Shown one piece after another: positions 15,256 to 28,421 of a stretch of DNA of 45,192 bases. Each line of letters opens with the position of its first letter. The first letter of the stretch is position 1. Below the pieces are notes generated by a model. The model ran no database searches. It saw only the letters and a list, made by a program, of their open reading frames with translations, and was not told the origin of the DNA. The stretch spans positions 1 through 45,192 of IMG/VR virus record IMGVR_UViG_3300005613_000120, one strand, 5' to 3'. The stretch is from a virus. The position numbers and the translations under genes were made by a program.

Positions 15256-15282
15256 TGTGTCCTTCGCTTCCCTCCGGCCAAT
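15256..15282 (-). repeat. Twin-GA hairpin element, copy before the small-terminase candidate
   Basis: Minus-strand copy. The element runs from ATTGGCCGGAG through GCGAAGGACACA to the ATG. The CC of CCGGA can pair with the GG of AAGGA, placing the ribosome binding site in the 3' arm. It matches the copy at 17442-17468 in 30 of 32 bases including the start codon. It is the only copy outside the rightward genes. Confidence 0.7.
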
Positions 15283-15288
15283 GCGATT

Positions 15289-15294
15289 ACTGTA
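15289..15294 (-). promoter_or_regulatory. Weak -10-like box (TACAGT) for the leftward operon
   Basis: On the minus strand TACAGT lies 33 bases before the ATG of the small-terminase candidate. No good -35 is found at 16-18 bases. It resembles the TACACT boxes of the rightward promoters and may be one of two starts for the late operon. Confidence 0.3.
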
Positions 15295-15357
15295 CCAGGC
15301 AAAGCAAAGACCAGCCTGTACGGGAAACGGCTGGAAATTGGCTGGCAGATGTTAGTA

Positions 15358-15388
15358 CGGGTTTTGTTAGATACGAAGCCCTGTAAAA
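15358..15388. repeat. 31-base repeat, intergenic copy
   Basis: 28 of 31 bases match 26844-26874, inside the primase-helicase gene; the perfect core is AGATACGAAGCCCTGT. These are the only two copies found. A leftward transcript of this copy would be complementary to the primase-helicase mRNA. Confidence 0.75.
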
Positions 15389-15404
15389 ATGATAGTGGTA
15401 TCAG

Positions 15405-15432
15405 ATTACAAACCAGGTTCCGGCCAATGCAA
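15405..15432 (-). promoter_or_regulatory. Candidate leftward late promoter (TTGCAT-16-TGTAAT)
   Basis: Minus strand: -35 TTGCAT (15432-15427), spacer of 16 bases, -10 TGTAAT (15410-15405). The start would be near 15398, giving a leader of about 140 bases containing the 31-base repeat in antisense sense. The block ATTGGCCGGA within the spacer also matches the repeated hairpin element, which could be coincidence. Confidence 0.45.
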
Positions 15433-15473
15433 AAGTCGGGAAATTTGCACCATGTTTGTGACTGATACCAAAG

Positions 15474-15518
15474 TCAAAAAAATCACGCGAAGTGGGGGGC
15501 TGTATTGAATACTTCGCG
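15474..15518 (-). terminator. Inverted repeat with minus-strand T-run
   Basis: Perfect 8-bp arms CGCGAAGT (15486-15493) and ACTTCGCG (15511-15518) with a 17-base loop. On the minus strand it is followed by TGATTTTTTTG. It would stop leftward transcription entering from the right. The same symmetry could also be a protein-binding site. No minus-strand gene lies to its right within 10 kb. Confidence 0.5.
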
Positions 15519-15587
15519 GGGGCCGGGGGGCGTGGTTCGGGTTGCGTGCGGGTCGGCTCCAGGTTCGGGTCCTGTCCGGCACATGCG

Positions 15588-15643
15588 TCGCGTTCGGTGC
15601 TTGTCCGGCACGGGCTCGCGTTCGGTGCTTGTCCGGCCCGGGC
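15588..15643. repeat. Two tandem 28-bp repeats
   Basis: Units 15588-15615 and 15616-15643 differ at one base and share GTTCGGTGCTTGTCCGGC. Partial copies (CCTGTCCGGCACATGC and CCCGGCACATGC) flank them. GC-rich direct repeats in the divergent control region resemble iterons or activator sites. No coding sense in either strand is credible. Confidence 0.75.
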
Positions 15644-15654
15644 TCCCGGCACAT

Positions 15655-15696
15655 GCTCTCCGATTCACGCTCTCCGATTCATGCTCTCGATGTCAT
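15655..15696. repeat. Three tandem 14-bp repeats
   Basis: GCTCTCCGATTCAC, GCTCTCCGATTCAT and a diverged third unit ending GTCAT, head to tail. Together with the 28-bp units upstream they make a clustered repeat block that could be a replication origin or regulator-binding array. Confidence 0.7.
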
Positions 15697-15725
15697 GCAT
15701 TGGGTGTCGTCGGTATCACCGTAGT

Positions 15726-15740
15726 TGAGACTCATTCTCA
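15726..15740. promoter_or_regulatory. Palindrome resembling a 7-1-7 Fur box
   Basis: TGAGACT C ATTCTCA. The arms match at six of seven positions and resemble the general Fur-box pattern TGAGAAT-N-ATTCTCA. It lies about 60 bases before the rightward -10 box. It may bind a host or phage repressor; iron control is only a guess. Confidence 0.4.
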
Positions 15741-15798
15741 TTTAGATCCGACGCGATTCCTCCCTCATCTTTTCGCCACCGATCCGCCGATCCTTTGG

Positions 15799-15829
15799 TA
15801 CACTGATGCCGGCGGGAACTCACCCGCCG
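15799..15829 (+). promoter_or_regulatory. Rightward early promoter -10 (TACACT) and leader hairpin
   Basis: TACACT at 15799-15804 matches the -10 boxes of two other plus-strand promoters here. No good -35 is visible, so an activator may be needed. Seven bases further on the leader can form a 7-bp stem (arms at 15810-15816 and 15823-15829, loop AACTCA), followed by AAGGAG and the first early gene. Confidence 0.5.
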
Positions 15830-15850
15830 CAAACGCAAGGAGCCATGAGC

Positions 15851-16207
15851 ATGAATGTCCACACGATCACCACCACCATCAAGGGGATCTGCGCGGCTGA
15901 TCCCGACGAGGCTGTCAAGGCCGCCCGCCGCCATAAGGATGGCGCGATGTGCTACCGCTACCTGACGGAACACCACGCCACGGACGGCGACACGCTGGAC
16001 TGCGTCGCGACTGCGGCCCGCTGGTCGCTGGAAGCCGCGGCGTCTGCGATGGCGGTCGCGGCCCTGACGACCGGCGACATGAGGCCGGGCACCCGGTTCC
16101 TGATCGCTGACCTCGCGCGGCTCGCCGCCGACGAAGCAGCCACCGCCGCCCGCGTGGCTGCCGAGGCGTTCGAGGCTGCGTACCACCGAGCCGCCATCGA
16201 AGACTGA
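15851..16207 (+). CDS. Small Ala-rich helical protein (118 aa), first early gene
   Basis: Begins MNVHTITTTIKGICAADPDE. Two ATGs occur; the second (15851) is chosen because AAGGAG is eight bases before it, while the first is only two bases away. The product is very Ala-rich and helical (AASAMAVAALTTGDM, FLIADLARLAADEAATAARV). No family recognised. As the first gene after the control region it is a candidate for early host takeover or regulation, but nothing in its sequence proves this. Confidence 0.55.
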   Translation: MNVHTITTTIKGICAADPDEAVKAARRHKDGAMCYRYLTEHHATDGDTLDCVATAARWSLEAAASAMAVAALTTGDMRPGTRFLIADLARLAADEAATAARVAAEAFEAAYHRAAIED

Positions 16208-16228
16208 CCTGACCATCAAACCCGGCCC

Positions 16229-16287
16229 GACTGGGCGGAGCGAAAGCGACGGACACGCTTGGCCGGAGCGAAAGCGACGGCCACATT
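16229..16287 (+). repeat. Twin-GA hairpin element, two tandem copies
   Basis: Copies at 16229-16260 and 16258-16287. Both contain CCG/GCG-GA-GC-GAAA-GC-GA-CGG; the second closes with GGCCG/CGGCC. The GAAA tetraloop, two G-A/G-A steps and GC clamp would make a stable, distinctive RNA hairpin just before the start of the next gene. Confidence 0.7.
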
Positions 16288-16298
16288 GGAGCATGAGC

Positions 16299-16736
16299 AT
16301 GAAGAACAGGCCGATTGTCACGCCGAGCAACGGCGACCACATTGCCAAAGCGATCGACCAGATCGAGTTCAGTGCCACATTCAACGACGCAGCGTTGTGG
16401 CTGGCCGTTTTGCCGACCGACGCCGAGCGGGCAGACGGGTGGGCAGACGCGAGCATCCACAGCCTCGCCACCGATCCCGAGGGGTGGCTGTCCAGTGACT
16501 TCATGGACAAGGCTCGCGGGGTGATCGGATGCGACCTGATCGAAGTGATCACGGGACCGGACTACATCGTGATCATTGATGAATGTGGGAAGATGTCCGG
16601 CGATCCCAAGCCGAACTCGCTGGCGACGCAGGTCGCCTGGGAAGCCGGGATTGCTTCGTGGGACATCATCGTCGGGCGCGCGATCATCATGCCGGTTCGG
16701 ACATGGGACGCGATCAACGCAGCGTACGACGCTTGA
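16299..16736 (+). CDS. Small phage protein, possibly DUF3846-like (145 aa)
   Basis: Start MKNRPIVTPSNGDHIAKAI is chosen at the second ATG because GGAG lies seven bases before it. Mid and C-terminal parts read GCDLIEVITGPDYIVIIDEC, PKPNSLATQVAW and DIIVGRAIIMPV. 'IEVI...IIDE.GK...PN..AT....DIIVG.AI' resembles DUF3846, a common small phage domain of unknown function. Tandem hairpin elements precede it. Confidence 0.55.
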   Translation: MKNRPIVTPSNGDHIAKAIDQIEFSATFNDAALWLAVLPTDAERADGWADASIHSLATDPEGWLSSDFMDKARGVIGCDLIEVITGPDYIVIIDECGKMSGDPKPNSLATQVAWEAGIASWDIIVGRAIIMPVRTWDAINAAYDA

Positions 16737-16741
16737 CACGG

Positions 16742-16808
16742 ACAGCCGGAGTCGGGGCGGGAGGCGACGGACACGCTTGGCCGGAGCGAAAGCGACGGAC
16801 ACGCTTGG
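16742..16808 (+). repeat. Twin-GA hairpin element, two further copies
   Basis: A diverged copy at 16742-16778 (CCGGAG, longer GC-rich apical part, GCGACGG) and a perfect copy at 16776-16808. A GC-rich tract follows, then AAGGAAGGACACGAAC before the next ATG, so the GGACAC tail of the element is seen again next to the start codon. Confidence 0.65.
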
Positions 16809-16852
16809 CCCCCGCCCCGCCCCGGCCCGGCACAACAAGGAAGGACACGAAC

Positions 16853-17131
16853 ATGATCAGCAACCGATCGACGAGGCCGTTTGAGGAAACGGCGAAGATG
16901 ATCCTCGCCAATGTGGACCCGAGAGAAGTCTGGATTGCGGTCTCCGAGTGCGAGGACGAGTACATGGGTTTTTGCCTCGCGTGCGGCGAGGCAGCGTGGG
17001 GCGTCGAGCCTGATGCCGAGGACTACAAGTGTGAGGCGTGCGGCGCGATGGCCGTTTGGGGCGCGGAGCAGATCGCCCTGTCATCCGGCCCGGCGTGGCT
17101 TTCCCGTGGAATGGAAGGAGGTGGCGAGTGA
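16853..17131 (+). CDS. Zinc-ribbon protein (92 aa)
   Basis: Starts MISNRSTRPFEETAK. Two CxxC pairs (FCLACGE and YKCEACGAM), 21 residues apart, make a typical zinc ribbon, followed by AVWGAEQIAL, as in many small phage zinc ribbons. AAGGAAGGA lies before the ATG. The C-terminus MEGGGE is encoded by bases that also form the ribosome binding site of the next gene. It probably binds nucleic acid or a protein partner. Confidence 0.65.
   Translation: MISNRSTRPFEETAKMILANVDPREVWIAVSECEDEYMGFCLACGEAAWGVEPDAEDYKCEACGAMAVWGAEQIALSSGPAWLSRGMEGGGE
17104..17131 (+). repeat. 28-base direct repeat at a gene junction, first copy
   Basis: Identical at 27 of 28 bases to 17415-17442. It covers the last codons of one gene, the AAGGAGG ribosome binding site and the GTG start of the next. 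The duplication suggests that the 311-bp unit between them arose by tandem duplication. Confidence 0.75.
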
Positions 17132-17442
17132 GCAATCCGGATACCGTTGACCGGAGCCCTGCGACGGGCACGCTTGATGAAGCGATCAAAAACGCGATCG
17201 CCATCATGATCGATCAAGCTGGCATCCCCGATCAGATCAGGCGAGCGATAGCCGATCTGACAGATCGGATGAACGGCATTGACCAAGAAAACGAGGAAAT
17301 CCGCGGCATCGTGGCTGCCGTCGAGGCCGAGCGGCGAGCGATGGCCGACCTGACAGATCGGTTGAACGGCATTGACCAAGTGTGGCGACGAAATCTGCGA
17401 TGGCGAGTGACGGGCCGTGGAACGGAAGGAGGTGGCGAGTGA
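17128..17442 (+). CDS. Small coiled-coil protein with internal repeat (104 aa)
   Basis: Starts at GTG (GTGA overlap) after AAGGAGG. The protein reads MSNPDTVDRSPATGTLDEAI and then has two copies of a helical unit, RRAIADLTDRMNGIDQ and RRAMADLTDRLNGIDQ, 35 residues apart. This is a coiled-coil-forming duplication. Its last 28 bases repeat the end of the previous gene. Function unknown. Confidence 0.55.
   Translation: MSNPDTVDRSPATGTLDEAIKNAIAIMIDQAGIPDQIRRAIADLTDRMNGIDQENEEIRGIVAAVEAERRAMADLTDRLNGIDQVWRRNLRWRVTGRGTEGGGE
17147..17175 (+). repeat. Twin-GA hairpin element within the start of a coding region
   Basis: TTGACCGGAGCCCTGCGACG followed by GGCACGCTTG. CCG-GA-GC-CCT-GC-GA-CGG keeps the GA/GA and stem pairs while the loop changes from GAAA to CCT. 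It lies just after the GTG start of the 104-residue gene. Confidence 0.6.
17415..17442 (+). repeat. 28-base direct repeat at a gene junction, second copy
   Basis: Partner of 17104-17131 (one T/C difference). It gives the next short reading frame the same AAGGAGG and GTG start. Confidence 0.75.
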
Positions 17443-17592
17443 TTGACCGGAGCGAAGCGAAGGACACAATGGAATGGTCACCATTCATCGTGATCGACGA
17501 CGGAGAACTCTTGCGGCGGCTTCGACCTGTCCGAAACCGGGGAAGAGTATGCCGAGAGCATTCTGGCAACGAACTGGAGCGAAATCGCATGA
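17439..17592 (+). pseudogene. Short early gene, apparently frameshifted
   Basis: A GTG with AAGGAGG opens MIDRSEAKDTMEWSPFIV up to DDGE. From there the protein-like frame changes by one base to ENSCGGFDLSETGEEYAESI...NWSEIA, which ends in a TGA that overlaps the ATG of the next gene (ATGA). The second half has better GC in third positions in the shifted frame. It looks like one small gene with a one-base shift: a sequencing error, a degraded gene or recoding. No known slippery site is seen. Confidence 0.4.
17442..17468 (+). repeat. Twin-GA hairpin element before an ATG
   Basis: ATTGACCGGAGCGAAGCGAA then GGACACA and ATG. Near-identical to the copy before the small-terminase candidate on the other strand. 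The ATG at 17469 is an alternative start for the short frameshifted gene. Confidence 0.7.
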
Positions 17593-17987
17593 AAGCGTAC
17601 ATCATCAGCCTGACAGGCGTTCGGCACGAAATGAAGGCCTACGACGAGGGATTCCCAGGCGATCCCGCGTGGGTCGTCGTGGACAGTCTGGGGCCGATCG
17701 GGGCTGTCCGGGCAGCCAGCGAGAGCGATGCGTGGGGGGTCGCGCTGGACATGTTCCTCCCCGATCCGATCGACGACGATGACATCTGGGAGAACAAGGA
17801 CGAAGGCACGCTTGCCGAGGGATACGAGTGGCGACCCAACGGCACGCCGACCGATGACACCGGCTTGAAATCCCCGGTGGCGTCGATTGACCTGAACGGG
17901 TGCCGCGTGTTCACGGTTGGAGAGTACATGAGGCTTGCGTCGCATTCCATCGAGATCGAGTTCGAGACAGAGGAGGAGGAGGAATGA
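17589..17987 (+). CDS. Unknown small acidic protein (132 aa)
   Basis: Starts MKAYIISLTGVRHEMKAYDE with GGAG nine bases upstream and ends in a Glu run (ETEEEEE). The N-terminus resembles small phage proteins with an alternating beta strand. The frame is open further upstream to 17439, but codon usage and a competing frame favour the ATG at 17589. The stop overlaps the next start (ATGA). Function unknown. Confidence 0.55.
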   Translation: MKAYIISLTGVRHEMKAYDEGFPGDPAWVVVDSLGPIGAVRAASESDAWGVALDMFLPDPIDDDDIWENKDEGTLAEGYEWRPNGTPTDDTGLKSPVASIDLNGCRVFTVGEYMRLASHSIEIEFETEEEEE

Positions 17988-18409
17988 CCACGATGCACGA
18001 CTACGACGAGGATCGGCAGATTAGAAGCGCGCACCATTTGGTCATGTCGGCAATCGACGCCCTGAGGTACGCAAGAAAGGCTTTGCATGATTTGCGTTTC
18101 GACGGCGAGGCGTCCACCCGAGCCGCCATTGGCATCATGAACAGGGTCGAGGCCCACATCGCCCGCCTGCTGGACGGCAGGGCAAGAGGCGACGAAGTGA
18201 ACACCAGGTATCGGTATCGGCACGCCGAAATGCTGATCCTTGAGGGAGATGGCGAGAACAGATACCGACTCATCGACCACTACGGCGACAAGGAGAAGGT
18301 CGAGCGACTGCACGAAATCCTCGATGACGAGGACATTGAACTGATGCTGCTGGGGATCGCGGCAATCAACGGATGGGACATCAGCGGCACGCCGCATTCA
18401 TTCCAGTGA
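17984..18409 (+). CDS. Unknown helical early protein (141 aa)
   Basis: Starts MTTMHDYDEDRQIRSAHHLV after a very strong GAGGAGGAGGA. Mostly helical with many charged residues (DALRYARKALHDLRFD, KEKVERLHEILDDEDIELML). No motif recognised. Coupled to both neighbours, so part of the accessory early cluster. Confidence 0.55.
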   Translation: MTTMHDYDEDRQIRSAHHLVMSAIDALRYARKALHDLRFDGEASTRAAIGIMNRVEAHIARLLDGRARGDEVNTRYRYRHAEMLILEGDGENRYRLIDHYGDKEKVERLHEILDDEDIELMLLGIAAINGWDISGTPHSFQ

Positions 18410-18423
18410 AAGGGATTCAGAGC

Positions 18424-19050
18424 ATGGACATCAACAAGATGAAGAAGAGCGACTACGAGCAACTTGGGCCGATCGGCAGGATCGCATACGAAAAGGCGAG
18501 GGCAGCGTCGAAGTACGACCCCCCGACTGCACAAGAGGTCTTCAATGCCGTCATGAGCGAGGTTGGCGTCGGCGGCGAAGCATGGGCTGTCGGCATCCTG
18601 TACGAGATGGCGACCAGCACGAAAAGCGGTGTGATCGAGGAGATCCCGAGTCAAAAGCAGTGGATTCCGATTTCAGCCATGACGATCCTTGCCAGGGAGA
18701 TGGCCCGGAAGATTGATATTGGCCGGAGCCGAAGCGAGGGCGAGAGAATCCGCATGGCGATCGGAGACATCGCAACGGCTGTTCGGGAGGAACACGCGAG
18801 AAGCGGCGGCAGGCTCAAGACCGTGGTCCACGACATCTTCATGGCCTTCGACATGCCGTCTCTGGCCGATGCCAGGAGGATCATTCTCGACGCCATCGGC
18901 ATGGATCAGGACCGCTACGACGAGATCATGATCCGGATCTTTTCCGACCAGCGGAAGGCCGATGAGATGGCCGACCTCAAGCGGGAGAAGCTGGAATCCG
19001 ATGCCCGCACTGACATGGAGGATGCTGCTGCGGAAAGGAGCCCGTGGTGA
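18424..19050 (+). CDS. Unknown helical early protein (208 aa)
   Basis: Begins MDINKMKKSDYEQLGPIG. Predicted helices with charged surface (AREMARKIDIGRSRSEGERI, LESDARTDMEDAAAERSPW). A copy of the twin-GA element lies in frame within it (18716-18745), encoding IGRSRSEG, so some element copies are inside genes. No family or enzyme motif recognised. Confidence 0.55.
   Translation: MDINKMKKSDYEQLGPIGRIAYEKARAASKYDPPTAQEVFNAVMSEVGVGGEAWAVGILYEMATSTKSGVIEEIPSQKQWIPISAMTILAREMARKIDIGRSRSEGERIRMAIGDIATAVREEHARSGGRLKTVVHDIFMAFDMPSLADARRIILDAIGMDQDRYDEIMIRIFSDQRKADEMADLKREKLESDARTDMEDAAAERSPW
18716..18745 (+). repeat. Twin-GA hairpin element inside a coding region
   Basis: ATTGGCCGGAGCCGAAGCGA GGG: GA/GA and GC pairs are kept, the last closing pair is lost. 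It lies in the 208-residue gene and is not next to a start codon. Confidence 0.5.
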
Positions 19051-19208
19051 GCCTAAGGCCGACAGGAGACAGCGGGTCGCCATTCTGGAGGCCGCCGGAC
19101 GAGGACGAACTTGAAGAGGATCGGCAGATCGTGCGGATCATCATTTTCATCGTCATGTTCGTACTGCTGCTGTTCGCGGTGGACTGGCTGTTGAGCCTTC
19201 TGCCATGA
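19047..19208 (+). CDS. Small single-span membrane protein (53 aa)
   Basis: Starts at GTG overlapping the previous TGA, after AAAGGAG. Polar acidic N-terminus (GSPFWRPPDEDELEEDRQIV) and a C-terminal hydrophobic helix (RIIIFIVMFVLLLFAVDWLL) ending LSLLP. The next gene starts inside its stop (ATGA). A tiny tail-anchored membrane protein in an early operon may alter the host membrane, exclude other phages or help in lysis. Confidence 0.6.
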   Translation: MSLRPTGDSGSPFWRPPDEDELEEDRQIVRIIIFIVMFVLLLFAVDWLLSLLP

Positions 19209-19531
19209 AGAGCAGGATCACAGGCAAGGAAGCACAGGAGATCGTCAGATGGATGCTGAAGAGCGGAATGAGGATGAAGGACATCGCAAGGGAGATCGGG
19301 ACGAGGTCCGCGACTCCGGCGAGATGGCTGGAAAAACCGCCCCGAACCCTGAACTCAGAAACGAGCATGAGGCTCTTGAGTCTGTCAAGGACTCGCGTCG
19401 TCGGTCTGACCCGGCGTCAGGCCTACTTGCGGGCGGTGGAGCGTCGGGCCGGAAACAAGGCGTCTACTCGATCCCGATCGTCGAAGGACGCCTCGCAGCG
19501 GTCCTCCCGACATCGGTTCCCGCTGTGCTAG
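19205..19531 (+). CDS. HTH DNA-binding protein (108 aa)
   Basis: The N-terminal 60 residues carry an HTH of the XRE/transposase-like type: ITGKEAQEIVRWMLKSGMRM KDIAREIG TRSATPARWLEK. After about residue 80 it becomes Arg/Ser-rich and less credible. Its 3' half overlaps the next HTH-like gene in another frame. Probably a small early regulator. Confidence 0.6.
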   Translation: MKSRITGKEAQEIVRWMLKSGMRMKDIAREIGTRSATPARWLEKPPRTLNSETSMRLLSLSRTRVVGLTRRQAYLRAVERRAGNKASTRSRSSKDASQRSSRHRFPLC

Positions 19532-19737
19532 AAGACTGGTACGGCATCAAGATCCACCCCAACACCGTCCGCAAGCGGATCATCGCCGGAACACTGGTCG
19601 GCACGCCCCTTTGGGCGCACGAGGGCCAGTGTCACCGGGTACTGATCCCCCTCAACGAGATCATCGCCTCATGGGGGCTGGAGGGCATTCCGGTCCTCGA
19701 TGGGCCAGGAGCGTGGTTCGTCAGGACAAAGCGATGA
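19324..19737 (+). CDS. Excisionase-like small DNA-binding protein (137 aa)
   Basis: The well-supported part (from ~19455) reads QGVYSIPIVEGRLAAVLPTS and WYGIKIHPNTVRKRIIAG, then GTPLWAHEGQCHRVLIPLNE, a MerR/excisionase-like helix-turn-helix. The best ATG is at 19324, giving a 200-base overlap with the upstream HTH gene in the -1 frame. Alternatively both are parts of one protein joined by frameshift. The 5' boundary is uncertain. Confidence 0.5.
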   Translation: MAGKTAPNPELRNEHEALESVKDSRRRSDPASGLLAGGGASGRKQGVYSIPIVEGRLAAVLPTSVPAVLEDWYGIKIHPNTVRKRIIAGTLVGTPLWAHEGQCHRVLIPLNEIIASWGLEGIPVLDGPGAWFVRTKR

Positions 19738-19743
19738 GACCCG

Positions 19744-19772
19744 TTGACGCCGCGTGGCGTCGGCGGTACACT
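19744..19772 (+). promoter_or_regulatory. Strong sigma70-type promoter (TTGACG-17-TACACT)
   Basis: -35 TTGACG (19744-19749), exact 17-base spacer, -10 TACACT (19767-19772). Transcription would start near 19779, only a few bases before the first ATG. It should drive the coiled-coil, SSB-like and following replication genes. Confidence 0.75.
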
Positions 19773-19782
19773 ACTACCGTTC

Positions 19783-20187
19783 ATGTTGGAGCATGAAGTG
19801 AAGACAGCACAGCAGATCACCGAGCGATTCGCCGCGATCCAGAAAAACCTGAATCGCGTCAACGCCGAGAAATCCGCTCTGGAGAAGGAGCTTCGGTCGG
19901 TCAAGGCCGAGTTTCTCCAGTGGTGCGAGGAGCAGGGCACGGACAAGGCCGTGTCCGACGAGATCACCATCACCCGTGTCACGAAGCCCGCAGCGTCGAT
20001 CGACGGCAGGTGGGACGACTATGTCCAGTGGTGCATCGAGAAGGGCAACCTTGACCTCATCACCCACAAGCGGCCCAACGCAAAGGCCCTGACCGAAATG
20101 ATCGAGGCTGGCGACGTGATCCCGCCGTGGATCGAGATCACCGAGTATGACGAAGCGACCTACCGCTTCAGAAAGGGACAGCAGTGA
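19783..20187 (+). CDS. Coiled-coil phage recombination/replication-type protein (134 aa)
   Basis: Begins MLEHEVKTAQQITERF; an internal GTG at 19798 with GGAG six bases before it is a strong alternative start. N-terminal coiled coil (IQKNLNRVNAEKSALEKEL), then a compact domain ending RPNAKALTEMIEAGDVIPP and TEYDEATYRFRKG. Similar proteins sit before SSB or recombinase genes in many phages; a nuclease-inhibitor (Gam-like) role is possible but unproven. Confidence 0.5.
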   Translation: MLEHEVKTAQQITERFAAIQKNLNRVNAEKSALEKELRSVKAEFLQWCEEQGTDKAVSDEITITRVTKPAASIDGRWDDYVQWCIEKGNLDLITHKRPNAKALTEMIEAGDVIPPWIEITEYDEATYRFRKGQQ

Positions 20188-20534
20188 ACATCAAGGAATA
20201 CGAGGAATACTACCGAGAGCAGGCCGAGCATCATGAGTTGCCTGACCACATGATCGACGGACTGGTCCGTTACATTGTTCACGGCATCGAGCCCGGCGGC
20301 TTCCTGATGTCCGTGCTTTGGAACGATCTGGCGTGGGCCGCAGCAAAGGCCGACGCGGTCAACCGGCGGAACCTGTTCCGGTACGCATCATTTCTGCTGT
20401 ACGGCGCACCAGGCGGCTGCTGGGGATCCCAGTCGAAGGTGCTGGAATGGATCGAGAAGGGCGGGCTGTCCTCCCTTCGAGGATCCTCTGTTTGGTGGGC
20501 CCCTGAGAACAAGGACGAGGTAGAGATTCAATGA
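20184..20534 (+). CDS. Conserved small phage protein (116 aa)
   Basis: Starts MNIKEYEEYYREQAEHHELP (ATGA-type coupling). The core DGLVRYIVHGIEPGGFLMSV LWNDLAWAAAKADAVN and GAPGGCWGSQSKVLEWIEKG matches a widely shared phage pattern (rY...G..PG.FL..vL.NDL..A...AD). No enzyme signature. It lies between the coiled-coil and SSB-like genes, so a replication or recombination accessory role is likely. Confidence 0.6.
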   Translation: MNIKEYEEYYREQAEHHELPDHMIDGLVRYIVHGIEPGGFLMSVLWNDLAWAAAKADAVNRRNLFRYASFLLYGAPGGCWGSQSKVLEWIEKGGLSSLRGSSVWWAPENKDEVEIQ

Positions 20535-21322
20535 CCAAGACCACGAAGAACGACAACGAGATCGTCAAGATGGAGGAGGGGGCTCTGGCCTCCGCCGACG
20601 AGGCCGTGCTGGCCCAGTTCGGGATGATGGAGGGCATGTCCAGCGAGGACATCGAGATGCCCGAGATCATCCTGTTCCAGAACCAGAACGAGGACAAGGT
20701 CGGCATGGGGCACGCGAAGGGCTCCTGGGTCAACGGCATCACCAAGCAGGCCATCACCGACAGCGATCGCGTGATCCCACTGCACGTTCGCCCCAGCGTC
20801 GTCGTCTGGGACGAGATGGCGAAGGCCGAGGGCATCGAGTGGCCGGTGTTCGTCGCCAAGCGGGCCGAGGACGTTCCCGCCGAGATCCGCGACAATCAGG
20901 AGACCGTCGAGGTCGATGGCGAGATCTCCCCCCGGTACGCCATCGACATCGGCTACGACGTGTTCGTCCTCCTGAACGACGAGCCGACCCCGTACCTGAT
21001 CAAGTGCTACCGCACCTCCAAGCGTGGTGCGAAGCAGTTGAACACCATCCTCATGGGCCGCCTCATGAGCGGCAAGGGCCCCGGCGTGTTCATGCTCGCC
21101 AACACCAGCCGCCAGACCGTCAAGAAGGGCCGCAAGGTCACCTACTACAACCCCCGGTTCGTCCTCACCGACGAGCCCATGACCAGGCAGCAGGCCGACA
21201 CCGCCCTCGCCCTGATCCCGTCACTCCGGCAGGATCCGCAGTACGGGTGGCTGATCGACCGTGCTGACAGCAGCACCAACAGCGACAATGTCATCGACGC
21301 CGACAACCCGTTCGATGCCTGA
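20531..21322 (+). CDS. Probable ssDNA-binding-like protein (263 aa)
   Basis: N-terminal acidic helix, then beta-rich core (EMPEIILFQNQNEDKVGMG, DRVIPLHVRPSVVVWDEMAK, FVLLNDEPTPYLIKCYRTSK) like OB-fold single-strand binding proteins of phages, and an acidic C-terminus with a terminal-like NPF (DADNPFDA). The C-terminal acidic plus NPF/IPF ending resembles SSB tails. It sits in the replication block before a terminator. The assignment rests on fold-like pattern and context. Confidence 0.45.
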   Translation: MTKTTKNDNEIVKMEEGALASADEAVLAQFGMMEGMSSEDIEMPEIILFQNQNEDKVGMGHAKGSWVNGITKQAITDSDRVIPLHVRPSVVVWDEMAKAEGIEWPVFVAKRAEDVPAEIRDNQETVEVDGEISPRYAIDIGYDVFVLLNDEPTPYLIKCYRTSKRGAKQLNTILMGRLMSGKGPGVFMLANTSRQTVKKGRKVTYYNPRFVLTDEPMTRQQADTALALIPSLRQDPQYGWLIDRADSSTNSDNVIDADNPFDA

Positions 21323-21346
21323 CGCAACAGCCTGATCTCCTTCTTT

Positions 21347-21383
21347 GGCTCGTCGCCCGGTTCGCCGGGTGGCGGGCCTTTTT
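21347..21383 (+). terminator. Rho-independent terminator with TTCG loop
   Basis: 14-bp stem with three wobble pairs, CCCGG-TTCG-CCGGG at the top, followed by TTTTT (21379-21383). It ends the SSB-like transcript; downstream genes probably rely on read-through. Confidence 0.9.
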
Positions 21384-21400: not shown

Positions 21401-22300
21401 ATGCAGATCTATGTCAGCCAGGCCCCGAAGTTTCCAGACATCTGGGTCCCCCCGTTCATCCGCGTGCTTGAGCATGGCGGGTACATGAAGTCGTTCGTGA
21501 ACTACCGCGTTCTAGGCTCCGGTGAAAAGCAGCCGATCAGCGTCTACTTCCCAAGCCTCGACCCCGTGTCGTCCACCTTCAGGTACGACGCCCGGTTCGT
21601 TGACAACAAGTGGACCGAGGACGGGCTTCGGATGCTCGACTCATGGGAGTCGATCTGGAAGCGGGAGTTCGTCCAGCCGATCAAGGACCGCGACATCCCG
21701 CTTCGTGCGATCCAGTTCGACCATGCGCGGTTTGCCGAGAACGAGGAGCAACGGCTTCTGGGAGATTTTCAGCGTCCGATCGCGGAAGGGATCATCGAGA
21801 TGCTGGCCGAGGAGTTCCCGACCGCCCACATCGGCATGTACGGCATCGCAGTCGATCCCAGGCCGACCCGCACGATCAACTGGAACATCTCCGGCGGGTC
21901 CCAGGCTCATTCATACGACACCGTCGCCAGCGACGAGCCGCTCAACGACACGATCTGGATCCGTGGCTACGGGAGACCTGACGGGCGAGGTCGCTACCCG
22001 CAGGACCGTGAACTGGATTTCCTCACCAGCTACAGCCTCGTCGCCAACTCGTCCGAGAACCCAGGCGCGATGATCATCTGGACGCCGCAGTCTCAGATGC
22101 AGGCAAGGGACTGGTCGAGGATGCTCTACCACCTCTGCATAGCGAACAACTGGCCGCTGGTCCCTGACCGCGTCGAGCCCGGCATCTCCGACATCATCAC
22201 CCAGATCCTCGCGGACATGGACACTGACGGGAACCTGATGCCGGGAGAGACGACGATGAGCGATCTCCTGCACGCCCTCCGCATGGCAGGACGCCGGTGA
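21401..22300 (+). CDS. Unknown protein (299 aa), possible TIM-barrel fold
   Basis: Starts MQIYVSQAPKFPDIWVPPFI. The alternation LRAIQFDHARFAENEEQRLL, GIIEMLAEEFPTAHIGMYGI suggests beta/alpha units, like some phage glycosidase-fold proteins, but no catalytic pair is identified. TIM-barrel is an impression only. It lies after a terminator and before several small genes in the replication region. Function unknown. Confidence 0.5.
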   Translation: MQIYVSQAPKFPDIWVPPFIRVLEHGGYMKSFVNYRVLGSGEKQPISVYFPSLDPVSSTFRYDARFVDNKWTEDGLRMLDSWESIWKREFVQPIKDRDIPLRAIQFDHARFAENEEQRLLGDFQRPIAEGIIEMLAEEFPTAHIGMYGIAVDPRPTRTINWNISGGSQAHSYDTVASDEPLNDTIWIRGYGRPDGRGRYPQDRELDFLTSYSLVANSSENPGAMIIWTPQSQMQARDWSRMLYHLCIANNWPLVPDRVEPGISDIITQILADMDTDGNLMPGETTMSDLLHALRMAGRR

Positions 22301-22512
22301 TCAAGTGCGACTACCCGAAAGGGTGCGGAGGCACGGCGGCGTGGGTCGCTGTCTACGGGATGCTCGATCTCGAAGACAAGACGGTCCCGCCGCCGTACTT
22401 CCTCTGCACGGAACACCTGATCGAATCACTGAAGAAGTACGGGAGCCGGGATGACACGATCAGAAAACACGTCATCATCAAGCGGGTCGGCGGCGGCGAC
22501 GAGGGTCTTTGA
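22297..22512 (+). CDS. Small Cys/His protein (71 aa)
   Basis: GTG start overlapping the previous stop. Motif CDYPKGCGG near the start and FLCTEHL near the middle (C, C, C and H) could hold one zinc. Basic C-terminus. Function unknown; common type of phage accessory protein. Confidence 0.5.
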   Translation: MIKCDYPKGCGGTAAWVAVYGMLDLEDKTVPPPYFLCTEHLIESLKKYGSRDDTIRKHVIIKRVGGGDEGL

Positions 22513-22513
22513 A

Positions 22514-22678
22514 ATGGAGTCCAGGCGAGCGAACATCGCGTGGACGATCGCAAGGCACTCGATCCTGTCAGGCATGAAGATCAACGTGATGTGCGACGAT
22601 CGCAGGGAGGCCGACATCCTCAACCAGATGATAGACGCGAACGTCCGAGAAATGAACAGCATGACTTGGAGCTTGTGA
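22514..22678 (+). CDS. Small unknown protein (54 aa)
   Basis: Begins MESRRANIAWTIARHSILSG and ends MNSMTWSL. One base separates it from the previous stop, and its TGA overlaps the next ATG. The in-frame start 63 bases upstream would overlap the neighbour. Helical, positively charged N-terminus. Coding status rests on the tight spacing. Confidence 0.45.
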   Translation: MESRRANIAWTIARHSILSGMKINVMCDDRREADILNQMIDANVREMNSMTWSL

Positions 22679-23235
22679 TGGGCGACATGAACTGCGCTTC
22701 AGGGCCGATTCCGTACCACATGCAGGTATGGGTTCGGCGGAGATTCATCGAGAACGACGTGGCTCCCGGAGAGCCGGACAAGACGCGAGCCGTGTGGTGT
22801 GGTCTGGTGAGCCATCCGGGCCGGGCTTGGGGCTGCACATGCGTACTTGAGAGTGGAGCGATCTACAGGAATCTGCCTCCGCACGCGATCGCGTTCGAGC
22901 AGAACTCGCCCGATATCGAACTGAGCAAGTGCCAGAAATGGGATTGCTACGGGTTTCGATGGTCGGCGTGCGTGTACCCGTATCTGGACGGGCAGGTCAT
23001 GATGGTCCGCGATTGGGACATCAGGGGCGAATACCTGTTCAGCGTGCAGCCGGTTGACGACGGCTGGAGCCGGGAGCCGGAGCAGAACAAGGAATTCACG
23101 TTCATCGTCATGGACGACGGAAATCTCGTCATCCAGCCGACCGACAGGACGCTGGTGATCGACAATTCGTTCACGAATGTCGTCGAGTGGCCCACATGGC
23201 TCAAGCGTCAAACTGAGAAATGGAGCGTTGAGTGA
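22678..23235 (+). CDS. Unknown protein with Cys residues (185 aa)
   Basis: Starts MGDMNCASGPIPYHMQVWVR with GGAG before it (TGATG overlap). Trp/Tyr/Cys-rich (RAWGCTCVLESGAIYRN, CQKWDCYGFRWSACVYPY), a possible metal site. No family recognised. It is coupled to the helicase gene. Confidence 0.5.
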   Translation: MGDMNCASGPIPYHMQVWVRRRFIENDVAPGEPDKTRAVWCGLVSHPGRAWGCTCVLESGAIYRNLPPHAIAFEQNSPDIELSKCQKWDCYGFRWSACVYPYLDGQVMMVRDWDIRGEYLFSVQPVDDGWSREPEQNKEFTFIVMDDGNLVIQPTDRTLVIDNSFTNVVEWPTWLKRQTEKWSVE

Positions 23236-24665
23236 GCGTCGAACTGTTCCCGCACCAGCGGGAGGGCGTGGACTTCGTACTCAACAAGGGCAGGGCGTGC
23301 CTGTTCTACGAGCAGGGGCTCGGCAAGACCATCACGGCCCTGACCGTGATGGATCTGGATCGCGGCTTTACCGTCGTCGTCTGCCCCAGGTCGATCATGA
23401 AGGGGACGTGGCTGGAGGATTCATCCCACTTTCCGGACCTCGACGTGAACATCTACCACGGCTCGAACCGCGACAAGAGAAACACGTTCTTCCACTACAA
23501 GATGATGGGCGATGAGCAGCGGCGATGCGGCGTGCTGGTCACGACGTTCGATACGTTCCGGCTGCACAAGGACGAGATCATGCGTCTTGAGCCGTATCGG
23601 ATCGTGGTTGATGAATCCAGCCGGATGAAGAACCGCAACTCCGAGACGGCGAAGGCGATCATCTCCTGCACCGATCGCGTCGAGAAGGTCATCCTCATGA
23701 CCGGGACCCCGGCCCCGAACGGACCCGAGGAGTATTTCACCCAGATCAGGTGCGTCTACGGGGTCTCATGCCCCAGCTTCTGGACATGGAGCGGTAAGTT
23801 CATGACGAAGATCATGAAGACCGTGCCAGGCAGGCGGACGCCGGTCGTGGATCGCTTCGTGCTGAAGGACCCGGCTGAGTTCGCCCGCAGGATCGAGCGG
23901 ATGGCCCACGTCAAGAAGAAGATCGACTGCTTCAAGGACATGCCCGAGAAGCTTGAGCGGGTCGTCAGCGTGGATCTTTCGACAAGGGAAAAGGGCATGT
24001 ACCACTCGATCGAGGACGAGTTCTTCGCCTCGTTCAACGACGACGGCGACGGCTTCGACATCGACCCGACCGCCGTGACGATGAAGCTTCGCCAGGTGTG
24101 CGGCGGGAACATCAGGGACACCGAGAACGAGGTCTGGAAAAAGGTCGGCAGGTCCAAGCTCGACGCCTTGCAGGAGATCATCGACGGCTTCGACCCCGGC
24201 AGGCCGTTCATTGTCTGGACGCAGTTCCGCGAGGAGGCGACGAGGGTGTCGGAAATGCTCGCGGACCAGATCGACCATAGGGTTTGCGATGGCAGGAGCA
24301 GCGACGATATCCCGTGGTTTCTTGAGGAGTTCCGGAAGGGTGATGTCAGGTGTCTTGTATGTCACCCTCAATCGGTCGGTCACGGCGCGACTCTTGTTCG
24401 TTGTGGAGATCGCTTTTGCAGCGACGCGATCTACTACTCCATGTCATACTCGTACGAGCTTCAGGTGCAGTCGATGGACCGCATCCATCGCATCGGACAG
24501 ATGGAGCCCTGCACCTACTGGTACATCGTCGCTGAAAACACCATCGACGAGGCCATCAGGAAGGCAATCGCGTCAAAGGAACGGATTTCGGAACGGGTGA
24601 TGACCGAGCTTCGAGCGATCGCGTTCGAGCGGAAGAACCTTGCCCAGGCCAGAAAGGAAAAGTGA
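23232..24665 (+). CDS. SF2 DNA helicase, SNF2/Rad54-like
   Basis: 477 residues with N-terminal FPHQREGVDFVLNKG, Walker A GLGKT at 29-33, DESS at 127-130 (DExx box), motif III MTGTP at 156-160 and motif VI QSMDRIHRIGQ near 412-422. The last is the SNF2-type signature. It lacks the long accessory domains of remodelers, so it is a small DNA-dependent ATPase probably acting at forks or on nucleoprotein. GTG start overlaps the upstream stop. It lies before the primase-helicase gene. Confidence 0.85.
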   Translation: MSVELFPHQREGVDFVLNKGRACLFYEQGLGKTITALTVMDLDRGFTVVVCPRSIMKGTWLEDSSHFPDLDVNIYHGSNRDKRNTFFHYKMMGDEQRRCGVLVTTFDTFRLHKDEIMRLEPYRIVVDESSRMKNRNSETAKAIISCTDRVEKVILMTGTPAPNGPEEYFTQIRCVYGVSCPSFWTWSGKFMTKIMKTVPGRRTPVVDRFVLKDPAEFARRIERMAHVKKKIDCFKDMPEKLERVVSVDLSTREKGMYHSIEDEFFASFNDDGDGFDIDPTAVTMKLRQVCGGNIRDTENEVWKKVGRSKLDALQEIIDGFDPGRPFIVWTQFREEATRVSEMLADQIDHRVCDGRSSDDIPWFLEEFRKGDVRCLVCHPQSVGHGATLVRCGDRFCSDAIYYSMSYSYELQVQSMDRIHRIGQMEPCTYWYIVAENTIDEAIRKAIASKERISERVMTELRAIAFERKNLAQARKEK

Positions 24666-27511
24666 TGAAGATAGAGATGAGCCCGGAGACGGCGGAGTCG
24701 CAGATGAAGCTCTTCGGTGGGCTGCTTTGGGGGCTGAGCGGAGAGGAACACGTCGAGATCAGGTGCATTCGGTCGCGGAAGGACAAGGTGCAGTCGGTCT
24801 GGCTGACGCCCAAGTCCTTCTCCGTGGTGGCGAAGAAGCTGTGGGCCTTGAACGAGGAGGGCTACAACATCTACGTCGGCATCCACCTGAGGAAGTCGAA
24901 GAATCCGGGTGACGACAACGTCGCGTCGATCCGATGCCACTTCGCGGACTGGGACGGCATGAAGTCGTGCCAGACGGCATTCGAGGCCTGCAAGCAGGCG
25001 GGCGTCCCGTCGCCGTCCCTGATCGTGCAGAGCGGCAACGGCTTCCACGGCTACTGGCTGATCGACAACGACATCGACCCCGAGGTCTACACCGGCTACC
25101 AGAAGGGCCTCGCCGTCGCCCTGGGGGCCGACTCGTCGGTGAGCAATCCCGAGCGGATCATGCGAGTGCCTGGCTTCTGGAACATGAAGGACCCGGAGAA
25201 CCCTCGTCCGTGCCTGATCGCATGGGCCGAGCAGGACATCGAGAACACCCTCGTCTACGACGACTCGTCCGATCTGGGCGTGGACCCGGTCAAGCCGATC
25301 GCACCGCCCGCCGTCGGCGCGTACACCAGCAGCAGCGGCGAGAAGATGGAGTTGAACGACTCCACGATCTTCTACATGTTCAACCGGGCTTCGGCGGGCC
25401 AGCGGAACAACCACTGCTTCGCAGCCGCGTGCGACATCGCCGCGTGCGGGTACACCGAGCAGGAGGCCGTCAGCATGTTGATGGCCGGGACGCTCCGGTG
25501 CGGGCTGCCGCTGAGCGAGATGGAGGCGGCGATCGCCAGTGCGTTCAAGAAGGCCCGCGAGAAGCGATCTGACAGCGAGGAGCAGGCGGAGATCGCCAGA
25601 TACCAGCCCGCCGTGATCATGGAGAAGACCACCGGCGTCATCGAGCGGTACATGACGACGCCAGGCGGCGAGGAGGGGTCCGAGTCCAAGCTGGTCCGCC
25701 ACTCGATCATCACGAACTACCAGACCGAGTTCGTCGCGGACGCCAACGGTGACTCCAAGCCCAAGAAGATCCTCGTCTCGACCAGCGACTTCTACCGCCA
25801 GGTCTCCGAGGTCTCCGGCGGCTTCCCCAAGCTCGTCAACGGCATCCCGTTCTACCTGCTGGACCCGGATCGGATCCTGAAGACCGTCCCCGAGATGCTT
25901 GAGGATGCCGGGGTGGTGAACCACGGGCTGTACCGGCTGCCCGACCACGTTCGGGAGGGCAAATACTTCCTGACATCGTCCGACCGGGTGATGTTCATGG
26001 GGGACCAGTCGAAGTTCTTCTCCTGGCTCCACATGACGGGCTACATCCGTCTGGCCGGGACTCGCGGCGTCGTCTTCTGCCCGACCGACCACGACGAGGC
26101 GATCGCCCCGCCGACCAAGACCGAGATCTTCGAGTCCACCATCGGCGAGGCGAGGAGCCGGGGCGAGAACTACAAGTCCATCGAGGTGATGCCGCACGTC
26201 CCCCGGATCGAGGGGTCCTACTACGCCCCGATGAATCTGCCACCGTCCACGGGGAAGGCCCTGGAGGAGCTTGTGGCTCATCTGAACCCCGAGACCGAGG
26301 TGGACCGCACCCTGATGATCGCGGCCCTCCTGACGCCTCTCTGGGGCGGTCCTGCGGGCAAGCGGCCCGCCTTCGTGTTCACCAGCGACCACGGGCGGGG
26401 CACGGGCAAGACCAGCACGGCCAACTTCTTCGCCGACGTGTTCGGCGGGGCCGACTACTTCGGCGAGAATGAGAAGGTCGAGGACATCAACAAGCGGCTG
26501 CTGGCTGACAGCAGCATGGCCCGCCGGGTGGTGATCATCGACAACGTCAAGAACACCCTGTCCAGCGGCGGGCTGGAGGCCCTGATCACCAACTCGATCA
26601 TCAACGGCCACCGGATGTACCACGGCAACTACAGCCGCCCGAACTACCTCACCTGGTATCTGACGGCCAACAGCCCAAGCCTGAGCCGCGACCTGGCCGA
26701 GCGTGCGGTCGAGATCAAGGTCGGCCCGCCGAAGTGGAACGTGGACTTCAGCCGGTTCTCAATCGAGTTCATCGCATCCAAGCGACTGGAATTGATCAGT
26801 GATCTGGTTGCCCTGCTGGAATCACCAAGTCACATGCCAAGTTCGGGTTTTGGCAGATACGAAGCCCTGTCAAAGTTTGGCGATCGCTGGAGTCTCTGGA
26901 GGGAGAACGTCCTCTCCAAGATCCCGAATTGGGAGCAGGTCATCCCCGAGATCTCCGCTCGCCGGACGGAGATGGACACGGATCGGGAGATGGCCGACGA
27001 CATCCAGACGATGTTCCTGAAGCTGGTGGTCCTCCAGGAGGGCGTCCAGCAGGCTTCTCTGGCCCTCCGAGACGCCTCCGCCGAGGACGGCCCCTACTGG
27101 TTCATCACCTCCAAGGCGGCCCACTACGGGGCGATGGCCGAGGAGATGCTGATGAAGACCTCCCAGCGTGGCGTGACGAACTTCGTGAACAAGTTCCTCG
27201 ACGTGCCGCCGCTCCGTGGCCGGGTCGTTCGCTACAAGAATCAATCAACCAGAGGCTTCCTGATGATCCCACCGGGCGTGAAATGGATTGGGACAGCTTC
27301 AGAGACTTCCGGGAAGCTCGGAAGCAAGGTCATCCAGGTCATCGACCCGCCCGCCGACAAGTCGATCTGGATGGACTCCTTGCCCGAAGACATCGCCAGA
27401 CTCTTCTCCGGGGACCCTAACAAAACAGGCGTAGCAGATTCCGAGGCGCATAACGGGCTTCCGGAAGAATCGGAAGAAGAAGGACGTTCGGGTTTTGATA
27501 TCCCATTTTGA
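24665..27511 (+). CDS. Primase-helicase: RepB/AEP-like primase plus AAA+/SF3-like ATPase
   Basis: 948 residues from the second ATG (TGATG overlap, AAAGGA before it). N-terminal primase: metal ligands in HFADWDG (D95, D97), SGNGFHGYWL (H128) and RIMRVPGFWNMK (~165-180) follow the archaeo-eukaryotic primase plan of RepB-like proteins. A helical linker follows, then Walker A HGRGTGKTS (~577-586) and Walker B VVIIDN (~620-626) of a phage/plasmid helicase. It probably initiates replication and unwinds DNA. The last residues (EEEGRSGFDIPF) mimic the bacterial SSB C-terminus. The 31-base repeat at 26844-26874 lies inside it. Confidence 0.85.
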   Translation: MKIEMSPETAESQMKLFGGLLWGLSGEEHVEIRCIRSRKDKVQSVWLTPKSFSVVAKKLWALNEEGYNIYVGIHLRKSKNPGDDNVASIRCHFADWDGMKSCQTAFEACKQAGVPSPSLIVQSGNGFHGYWLIDNDIDPEVYTGYQKGLAVALGADSSVSNPERIMRVPGFWNMKDPENPRPCLIAWAEQDIENTLVYDDSSDLGVDPVKPIAPPAVGAYTSSSGEKMELNDSTIFYMFNRASAGQRNNHCFAAACDIAACGYTEQEAVSMLMAGTLRCGLPLSEMEAAIASAFKKAREKRSDSEEQAEIARYQPAVIMEKTTGVIERYMTTPGGEEGSESKLVRHSIITNYQTEFVADANGDSKPKKILVSTSDFYRQVSEVSGGFPKLVNGIPFYLLDPDRILKTVPEMLEDAGVVNHGLYRLPDHVREGKYFLTSSDRVMFMGDQSKFFSWLHMTGYIRLAGTRGVVFCPTDHDEAIAPPTKTEIFESTIGEARSRGENYKSIEVMPHVPRIEGSYYAPMNLPPSTGKALEELVAHLNPETEVDRTLMIAALLTPLWGGPAGKRPAFVFTSDHGRGTGKTSTANFFADVFGGADYFGENEKVEDINKRLLADSSMARRVVIIDNVKNTLSSGGLEALITNSIINGHRMYHGNYSRPNYLTWYLTANSPSLSRDLAERAVEIKVGPPKWNVDFSRFSIEFIASKRLELISDLVALLESPSHMPSSGFGRYEALSKFGDRWSLWRENVLSKIPNWEQVIPEISARRTEMDTDREMADDIQTMFLKLVVLQEGVQQASLALRDASAEDGPYWFITSKAAHYGAMAEEMLMKTSQRGVTNFVNKFLDVPPLRGRVVRYKNQSTRGFLMIPPGVKWIGTASETSGKLGSKVIQVIDPPADKSIWMDSLPEDIARLFSGDPNKTGVADSEAHNGLPEESEEEGRSGFDIPF
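26844..26874. repeat. 31-base repeat, copy inside the primase-helicase gene
   Basis: Encodes part of SSGFGRYEALSKFG. It matches 15358-15388 at 28 of 31 positions. The intergenic copy is not open in the same way, so conservation is at nucleotide level. Confidence 0.75.
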
Positions 27512-27581
27512 TGCCACGGCGCATCCATTCGCCATGGATTGACCACCCGCCACCAGATACGCCAATAGTGTTCAAAAATCT

Positions 27582-27616
27582 AAAATCCCCTCTCAGGAAT
27601 TCTGGGAGGGGATTTT
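27582..27616. terminator. Rho-independent terminator, nearly symmetric
   Basis: 15-bp stem (one wobble) AAAATCCCCTCTCAG with GAATT loop and matching arm ending TTTT, 70 bases after the primase-helicase gene. A-run and T-run on both sides make it likely bidirectional. Confidence 0.9.
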
Positions 27617-27877
27617 GCTTGTATCAGTCTACCGCTGGATATATCCTTATGGCGTTGTGGCGCATATTTTAGGGGTAAGAGTCTATGACCTATAAGAGGG
27701 GGCAAAAGCGTTGAGAATGGGGGGGAGAGAGGGGGAAAACATGAGCAACGCACTACATAGGGAAATTCCGCGCCAAGCGGCACCCGTATCCGCCACGGAT
27801 CGTCTCACGTAAGGGTTCTGTTCTGTAAAATCCGTTAGGGTCAGACGATCACTGACAAAAAAAATCATTGACTGCCT
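27617..27877. other. Noncoding spacer between terminator and promoter
   Basis: About 260 bases, less GC-rich than the surroundings, with a G-rich run (27721-27738) and a 5-bp inverted repeat GTCAG/CTGAC (27840-27856) before the promoter. Open frames on the minus strand here have no start signals and no family resemblance. The inverted repeat could be an operator. Confidence 0.5.
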
Positions 27878-27905
27878 TTGATTGCATGGGCATCCGTGCT
27901 ACACT
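27878..27905 (+). promoter_or_regulatory. Sigma70-type promoter (TTGATT-16-TACACT), leaderless
   Basis: -35 TTGATT (27878-27883), 16-base spacer, -10 TACACT (27900-27905). The ATG of the next gene is only six bases after the -10, so the transcript should start at the ATG itself. No Shine-Dalgarno is present. Confidence 0.7.
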
Positions 27906-27911
27906 GACGGC

Positions 27912-28190
27912 ATGAGTGACACCGCAACTATCGAGGCCGAGGCTCAGGCCCCGGCGAGCAAGCCCCGCAAGCCCCGCAAGCCCGCCCCGATCGTGGTTGA
28001 GCGGGCCAAGAACCCGGACGCCGAGCCCGAGAAGATCCAGTGGATCACCGGGACCAGCACCTTCGGCTCGACCGCCGAGGCCAAGAAGGCAATCGTGGAC
28101 ATCGCCGAGGCAGGGCTCTACCGCATCGTTCAGGTCCGCGACCAGTTCACGGTCTCCGTCGAGACCAAGCCGGTCGTCAAGATCGACTGA
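27912..28190 (+). CDS. Small Lys/Pro-rich protein (92 aa)
   Basis: Begins MSDTATIEAEAQAPASKPRK with a KPRKPRKPAP basic linker, then a small mixed domain (IQWITGTSTFGSTAEAKKAI, GLYRIVQVRDQFTVSVETK). The basic linker suggests nucleic acid binding. Start chosen by the leaderless promoter. It is followed by the structured region and terminator. Confidence 0.6.
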   Translation: MSDTATIEAEAQAPASKPRKPRKPAPIVVERAKNPDAEPEKIQWITGTSTFGSTAEAKKAIVDIAEAGLYRIVQVRDQFTVSVETKPVVKID

Positions 28191-28316
28191 GACATCCCAC
28201 TGGCCTGGGATCAGGCAGCGTCTTCAATGCCACCTAGCTGCCAACATCGTCGGCCTCTCTTCATCAAGGCTGACTCGTTGGGGAAAACAGGTTGTGGTGG
28301 CAACCAGAACCCCGAT
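28191..28316 (+). ncRNA. Possible small structured RNA or long 3' UTR
   Basis: No ORF. Short hairpins ATCCCA-CTGGCC-TGGGAT and, further on, GGGG-..-GGTTG-TGGTGG-CAACC-..-CCCC suggest a folded RNA ending at the strong terminator that follows. It may be the 3' UTR of the 92-residue gene or a processed sRNA. Confidence 0.35.
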
Positions 28317-28384
28317 AAGCCACGGCTGGGCCAACCTTCATGCAACTCCCCCGATGCATGAAGGCCCCAGCCGTGGCTTTTTTT
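28317..28384 (+). terminator. Long-stem Rho-independent terminator
   Basis: AAGCCACGGCTGGG with CCTTCATGCA pairs to the reverse arm TGCATGAAGG and CCCCAGCCGTGGCTT across a 10-base loop, followed by TTTTT. About 24 bp in the stem, unusually long. Confidence 0.9.
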
Positions 28385-28392
28385 GGAACGCG

Positions 28393-28421
28393 ATTGGCCG
28401 GAGCCCGGCGAAGGACACGAC
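28393..28421 (+). repeat. Twin-GA hairpin element before the double-HTH gene
   Basis: ATTGGCCGGAGCCCGGCGAA then GGACACGAC and ATG. CC-GGA-GC-CCG-GC-GA-AGG keeps the pairs with a different loop. The SD bases AAGGA are in the 3' arm. Confidence 0.7.

Follow-up and report, generated by a model that had tools for sequence, protein, structure and literature searches.

A 27-28-nt repeat at gene junctions of a bacterial virus, a candidate for a very small mobile DNA element

A short sequence able to form a hairpin recurs in about nine copies of 27-28 bases in the genome of one virus of bacteria, several of them directly before start codons, and the question is whether these copies represent a shared RNA switch, a set of sites for a protein, or pieces of DNA that spread by themselves. 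The precise insertion described below is invisible from one sequence alone, and came out through comparison with related phages. With these relatives at hand, a small dispersed mobile repeat of the REP/SDR kind, residing in a phage, appears to be the best reading; we put at about two in three the probability that a family of dispersed repeats of 27-28 nt has spread in this phage lineage by precise insertion at the tetranucleotide NTGR in gene junctions. The repeat is a candidate for one of the smallest self-spreading pieces of DNA known, and not for a shared RNA switch.

Genomes of tailed phages are under strong pressure to stay compact, and descriptions of mobile DNA in them normally concern introns that carry genes, homing endonucleases, or elements of MITE size, i.e., hundreds of bases. 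If our reading is true, an inserter of 27 nt that settles at stop/start junctions and is able to supply a ribosome-binding site would be selfish DNA of this very small size, remodelling the translation signals of a phage, and would offer a fast-replicating phage system for testing how REP- and SDR-type repeats move, which is an unsolved question.

The repeat unit and its copies

The window, by which we mean the whole stretch of 45,192 nucleotides that was analysed, is an IMG/VR virus record. It encodes a terminase, a major head protein and helicases, and appears to be an almost complete genome that was opened within a late structural gene; in the related contig L177, the counterparts of its first and last bases are about 400 nt apart.

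Copies were scored position by position against the consensus TTGRCCGGAGC-N(3-4)-GCGAMGGNCAC, with 22 scored positions and close spacing variants allowed. Seven copies in the window match at 20-21 of the 22 positions, one at 19, and the copy inside gene 18424-19050 at 18. In six first-order shuffles of the complete window, the best score was a single match at 18; the repeats are real and far above chance (Table 1). Every copy in the list of the preliminary description was located, at or within a few bases of the place given there, and one more, in the late operon, was added to it (6027-6053). Of the two copies that had been placed at 16742-16808, the second stands, and the first is degenerate.

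Table 1. Copies of the repeat in the window and their surroundings
Position	Strand	Copy	Context
6027-6053	-	27 nt, TTGACAGGAGCCCGGCGACGGGCACGC then TTGA	At TGA stop of gene 6050-7078, upstream of gene 5740-5991
15256-15282	-	27 nt, GCGAAGGACACA-ATG allele	Immediately 5' of ATG of gene 14647-15255, which lies upstream of the large terminase
16231-16258	+	28 nt, GAAA loop, first member of tandem pair	Gap after gene 15848-16207
16259-16285	+	GAAA loop, second member of tandem pair	TTGG on both sides; upstream of gene 16299-16736
16748-16776	+	Degenerate, long loop, 16/22, first member of second tandem pair	After gene 16299-16736
16777-16804	+	28 nt, GAAA loop	TTGG on both sides
17147-17173	+	27 nt, in frame, 9 codons (DRSPATGTL)	Inside ORF 17128-17442; TTGA on both sides
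17443-17468	+	GCGAAGGACACA-ATG allele	Between TGA of ORF 17128-17442 and ATG (17469) of ORF 17469-17987
18719-18744	+	Diverged, 18/22, right NTGR lacking	Inside gene 18424-19050
28394-28421	+	28 nt, GCGAAGGACAC allele	Directly before ATG (28422) of gene for HTH_17/excisionase-like DNA-binding protein

The conserved unit is longer than the hairpin and extends over about 27-28 nt, from a left NTGR to a right NTGR, these tetranucleotides being TTGA, TTGG, ATGG or ATGA. Of 12 copies, 11 have NTGR at the right end, compared with a background frequency of 3.6% per position; on the left, too, the copies are bounded by NTGR. There are two subtypes, TTGA...GGGCACGC followed by TTGA (with GGGCAC inside), and TTGG...GGACAC.. 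followed by (T/A)TGG. An apparent covariation of the left R with the internal N (A/G versus G/A) is confounded by these subtypes and is not claimed. The 21-22 letters common to the copies exceed what a short operator or a Shine-Dalgarno (SD) sequence needs, which counts in favor of a mobile repeat. All copies are in the sense orientation relative to the local genes; this bias is compatible with target choice at start and stop codons and also with insertion into one replication strand, and decides neither.

Some sequences resemble parts of the unit. The leader of gene 16853-17131 (16826-16855, GGAAGGACACGAACATG) resembles the element in its 3' half (GCGAAGGACACGACATG), with no counterpart of the 5' half, and is possibly a truncated copy; TTGACCGCGCTGCGGGAAGGTGACATGG, before the giant gene on the minus strand (41331-41354), matches at 15/22, a chance-level score, and is possibly a decayed one. 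A ribosome-binding site before gene 5208-5717, TTGGAGCGACGGCATGG, was considered as a shrunken copy and rejected, as its alignment with the leader in the relative L179 needs just one gap of 1 nt and the sequence is a leader of the ordinary type. An inverted repeat at 28319-28385 (AAGCCACGGCTGGG / CCAGCCGTGGCTT), just upstream of the 28394 copy, is accompanied by a T run and resembles a terminator.

Exact-core scans of IMG/VR, and of GTDB for the TTGG subtype only, returned single matches scattered in unrelated contigs, mostly coding-looking. The only contigs with more than one good copy were the window, L149 and L178 (= L151), i.e., the window and its own relatives; hence, in this form, the element is not a repeat of wide distribution among hosts. 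Three outside matches, in the AT-rich IMG/VR contig L131 (19/22), in EBPR podovirus 1 (21 bp) and in Gordonia phage Lilbeanie, were judged to be due to chance, as there was no second copy.

Filled and empty junctions in related phages

Relatives were found by protein searches, all of them in the late region: L178/L151 (99.6% identical to the window), L149 (about 91%), L177 (about 88%) and L179/L150 (about 70%). Searches for relatives of the early region with the primase-like and SNF2 helicase proteins found none, and the comparison of filled and empty sites covers three late-region junctions, the early copies at 16.2-28.4 kb, which are the majority, being outside the aligned relatives.

At site B (6053), the window and L178 read CAGTA-TTGACAGGAGCCCGGCGACGGGCACGC-TTGATCC, L177 reads CAGTA-TTGATCC, and L179 has no insert. 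At site A (15282), GC-ATTGGCCGGAGGGAAGCGAAGGACACA-ATGG in the window and L178 corresponds to GC-ATGG in L149 and to CT-ATGG in L179, the empty sequences being GTGGC^ATGGATGG and TTCT^ATGGACGG, respectively. Site C, before the terminase gene, is filled in L149 by three head-to-tail units of 27 nt, which lie between the stop codon and the ATG, and is empty in the window, L178 and L179. A single NTGR is present where the insert is lacking, namely ATGG at site A (L149), TTGA at site B (L177), and TTGA or ATGA at site C, whereas filled sites have NTGR at both ends of the unit. The whole unit of 27 nt has thus been gained precisely at NTGR, repeatedly and with tandem forms included. Since the outgroup L179 is empty at all three junctions, gains are the simplest reading, most simply two on the lineage of the window and one on that of L149; loss by recombination between the flanking 4-nt repeats could mimic some of them.

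The elements are also the only indels of at least 9 nt outside coding sequence, in 12.2 kb compared with L177 at 88% identity and in about 8.5 kb compared with L149 at 82-91%, with the triple insertion of L149 falling between two alignment blocks. The same inserts occur in two separate contigs, the window and L178, which speaks against assembly errors at sites A and B; for the tandem array of L149, the precise number of units is less secure, since repeats can be miscounted when short reads are assembled. The comparison also bears on the conserved, protein-controlled regulon that had been proposed on the basis of the window: orthologous genes in the relatives are wholly without the element, even though their flanks align, which speaks against such a regulon.

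Translation starts, protein binding and the hairpin

That several copies lie just before an ATG is correct for those at 15256-15282, 17443-17468 and 28394-28421, but the copies at 6027, 16231, 16748, 16777 and 17147 adjoin no start. Starts of the type ATG-R and stop-start overlaps of the type TTGA/ATGA happen to read NTGR, and this largely explains the reported position before start codons; insertion at NTGR, with survival only where no frame is broken, would account for most of the pattern. Two copies, at 17147 and 18719, are inside reading frames. The former is the telling exception, as it is 27 nt long, flanked by TTGA and in frame, adding nine codons to the ORF.

A link with translation does exist in a subset of copies. 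Four copies, three of the window and one of L149, directly adjoin an ATG, and every one of them has the AAGG(A) allele (GCGAAGG), while the seven others all have GCGACGG (Fisher p = 0.003, the copies being not fully independent). A translational role of these four copies, with the allele acting in the manner of an SD sequence, is plausible from this association; the spacing of AAGG and ATG in the L149 copy is, however, unusually short, at about 3 nt.

One may ask whether the whole family is of this kind, consisting of translation-initiation modules gained at starts to provide a phage-specific ribosome-binding context, possibly together with a phage-encoded factor, as with the start-associated sequences of Cluster K mycobacteriophages. 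There, SAS and ESAS recur at start codons, and one relative may lack them altogether (PMC3203893); in our case four copies stand directly before an ATG with AAGG(A), and all copies are in sense. On the other hand, at least five copies adjoin no start and have no AAGGA, two are inside reading frames, tandem arrays occur, orthologous genes do without the element, and many genes of this phage have an ordinary SD or none. The Cluster K SAS is a 13-bp sequence, GGGATAGGAGCCC, virtually every site of which is a few nucleotides from a start and conserved among relatives (PMC3203893). The repeat shares with SAS/ESAS the location at translation starts of a tailed phage, the absence from some relatives and, in some cases, inverted repeats; it differs in sequence, in that about half of the copies are not at a start, and in that orthologous sites are empty. 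We consider this explanation unlikely.

Somewhat less probable still are stoperator-like DNA sites. In this reading, a DNA-binding protein of the phage would occupy the copies as asymmetric operators at gene junctions; a candidate is the HTH_17 protein of gene 28422, a gene that is itself preceded by a copy. The stoperators of phage L5 are characterised by asymmetry, by a location in short junctions and by an orientation that follows transcription (PMC9283540), and the same arrangement is seen here, with all copies in sense and most of them in junctions. Both L5 stoperators (PMC9283540) and SAS/ESAS are thus similar to the repeat in location and orientation, but both are 13-bp sites, while the insertions described here are 27-28 bp long and come as whole units, sometimes in tandem, with NTGR at both ends. 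Moreover, the loop varies in length (3, 4 or more), which is seldom tolerated by a duplex-binding protein, and no integrase was found, hence no sign of lysogeny.

The hairpin, tandem G.A pairs included, can be read off the sequence, and had been described as an RNA structure under selection. Among 11 aligned copies, however, no pair has changed on both sides, the very lack of compensatory stem changes that the preliminary description had named as evidence against itself, and four of the seven stem pairs depart from the consensus by breaking only. The most variable pair, the G-C of columns 8/21, has been lost in all four copies with the SD-like allele and in no others, so this allele weakens the stem; of the earlier proposal, in which folding hides the AAGGA of the 3' arm, a link to translation starts is supported in a subset of copies, and a structure kept by selection is not. 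If these copies acquired an SD-like sequence, they did so at the stem's expense, contrary to what is expected of an RNA switch, in which the stem would be conserved. RNA and DNA folding gave the proposed hairpin in some copies only, stable for those with the GAAA loop, the others folding differently or hardly at all, with z-scores unremarkable for most copies, and no match to Rfam reached the gathering score. A structured cis-element in RNA that hides or exposes the ribosome-binding site under protein control is therefore hardly tenable, even though GAAA-loop copies fold as drawn and some copies carry AAGGA within the 3' arm.

Comparison with known mobile repeats

The dispersed mobile repeat that we favor has its closest parallels in bacterial chromosomes. 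SDR units of cyanobacteria are reportedly 21-27 nt long, and their secondary structure is said to show compensatory changes in some families; to our knowledge, SDRs have no dedicated transposase, and we know of none reported in a phage. Like the SDRs of Nostoc and other cyanobacteria (Elhai et al. 2008, Genome Res; cited in PMC3116915, PMC3733652), the repeat is a short hairpin-forming unit of about 20-30 nt, in several dispersed copies that appear to be recently mobile, with filled and empty orthologous sites for the whole unit (three sites); unlike it, SDRs are chromosomal, numerous and of other sequence, and the compensatory changes are absent here (no double changes).

REP/REPIN sequences, which are associated with RAYT (TnpA-REP) tyrosine transposases and are thought to be mobilised via single-stranded DNA by Y1 HUH enzymes (PMC6006769, PMC3733652, PMC3116915), are likewise short imperfect hairpins beside a tetranucleotide, mostly intergenic, single or in tandem. 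Three of their features are lacking here. The tag of REP is GTAG/GTGG (or CGTC), as opposed to TTGR/NTGR on both sides (PMC6006769, PMC3733652); the basal stem of REP is 7-20 nt and fully paired, as opposed to at most 3 bp, two GA mismatches and 2 bp; and the window encodes no cognate Y1/RAYT transposase (PF01797). By analogy, then, the element may work like the small mobile palindromic repeats of bacteria, REP/REPIN and SDR, with no claim to REP membership.

Rickettsia palindromic elements, about 100-150 nt in length, are also small palindromic repeats that occur in frame inside ORFs, as does the copy at 17147-17173; they differ in being longer, in the CGTC tag and in the bacterial chromosome as their residence. 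These elements are mentioned in PMC3733652. Transposons of the IS200/IS605 family insert beside a short T-rich tetra- or pentanucleotide that is read via a hairpin-associated guide, TTAC in IS608 and TTGAT|G in ISDra2 (PMC5934647). TTGA(T) resembles the latter target, which is a lead only for the origin of the NTGR preference, and the repeat has neither transposase nor left and right ends around a cargo.

A unit would be copied from another copy in the genome and inserted while DNA is single-stranded at replication. The mover might be a Y1/HUH-type transposase of the IS200/IS605 or REP type, supplied in trans by the host or by a co-infecting element, or else the template might be switched at NTGR sequences that offer microhomology. 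The structure that is recognised, or that induces a pause, would be the imperfect hairpin (CCG-GA-GC-loop-GC-GA-CGG). Insertions at stop/start junctions would survive because both reading frames stay intact, and a copy placed against an ATG could, by a C-to-A change that makes AAGG(A), become part of a ribosome-binding site, as the allele association suggests. Several observations are less comfortable for this scheme: no Y1 transposase was found in the window and no integrase or resolvase in the window or the relatives, the number of copies is small, and the hairpin is weak in several of them, which is not what a strict REP-type mechanism would predict. A bolder version is doubtful, namely that the repeat is an autonomous-looking viral element of 27-28 nt, among the smallest known, whose own hairpin foot N-C-A pairs with the flanking T-G-R and so chooses the target; the two subtypes (TTGA/GGGCAC and TTGG/GGACAC) differ jointly at target and foot, which is reminiscent of the guide/target pairing of IS608.

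Other features of this genome were recorded along the way. The minus-strand frame at 29184-41354 has 4056 codons and appears to encode a giant protein of the polyvalent type, with a Strawberry-notch-type helicase pair (PF13872, PF13871) in the middle and without a match among PHROGs; an N4-like hairpin promoter was dropped as an idea, as this protein of 4056 aa shows a Strawberry-notch helicase and no match to virion RNA polymerase. The divergent intergenic region between late and early genes contains three near-identical direct repeats of 28 nt (15559-15643), possibly origin or regulatory iterons, and the syntenic place in L179 has unrelated direct repeats (9-98, 197-238, 254-337). Finally, the first early gene is wholly different in L178 (1-137) and in the window (15927-16080), next to a late region that is 99.6% identical, and we read this difference as a mosaic boundary beside the element-rich region.
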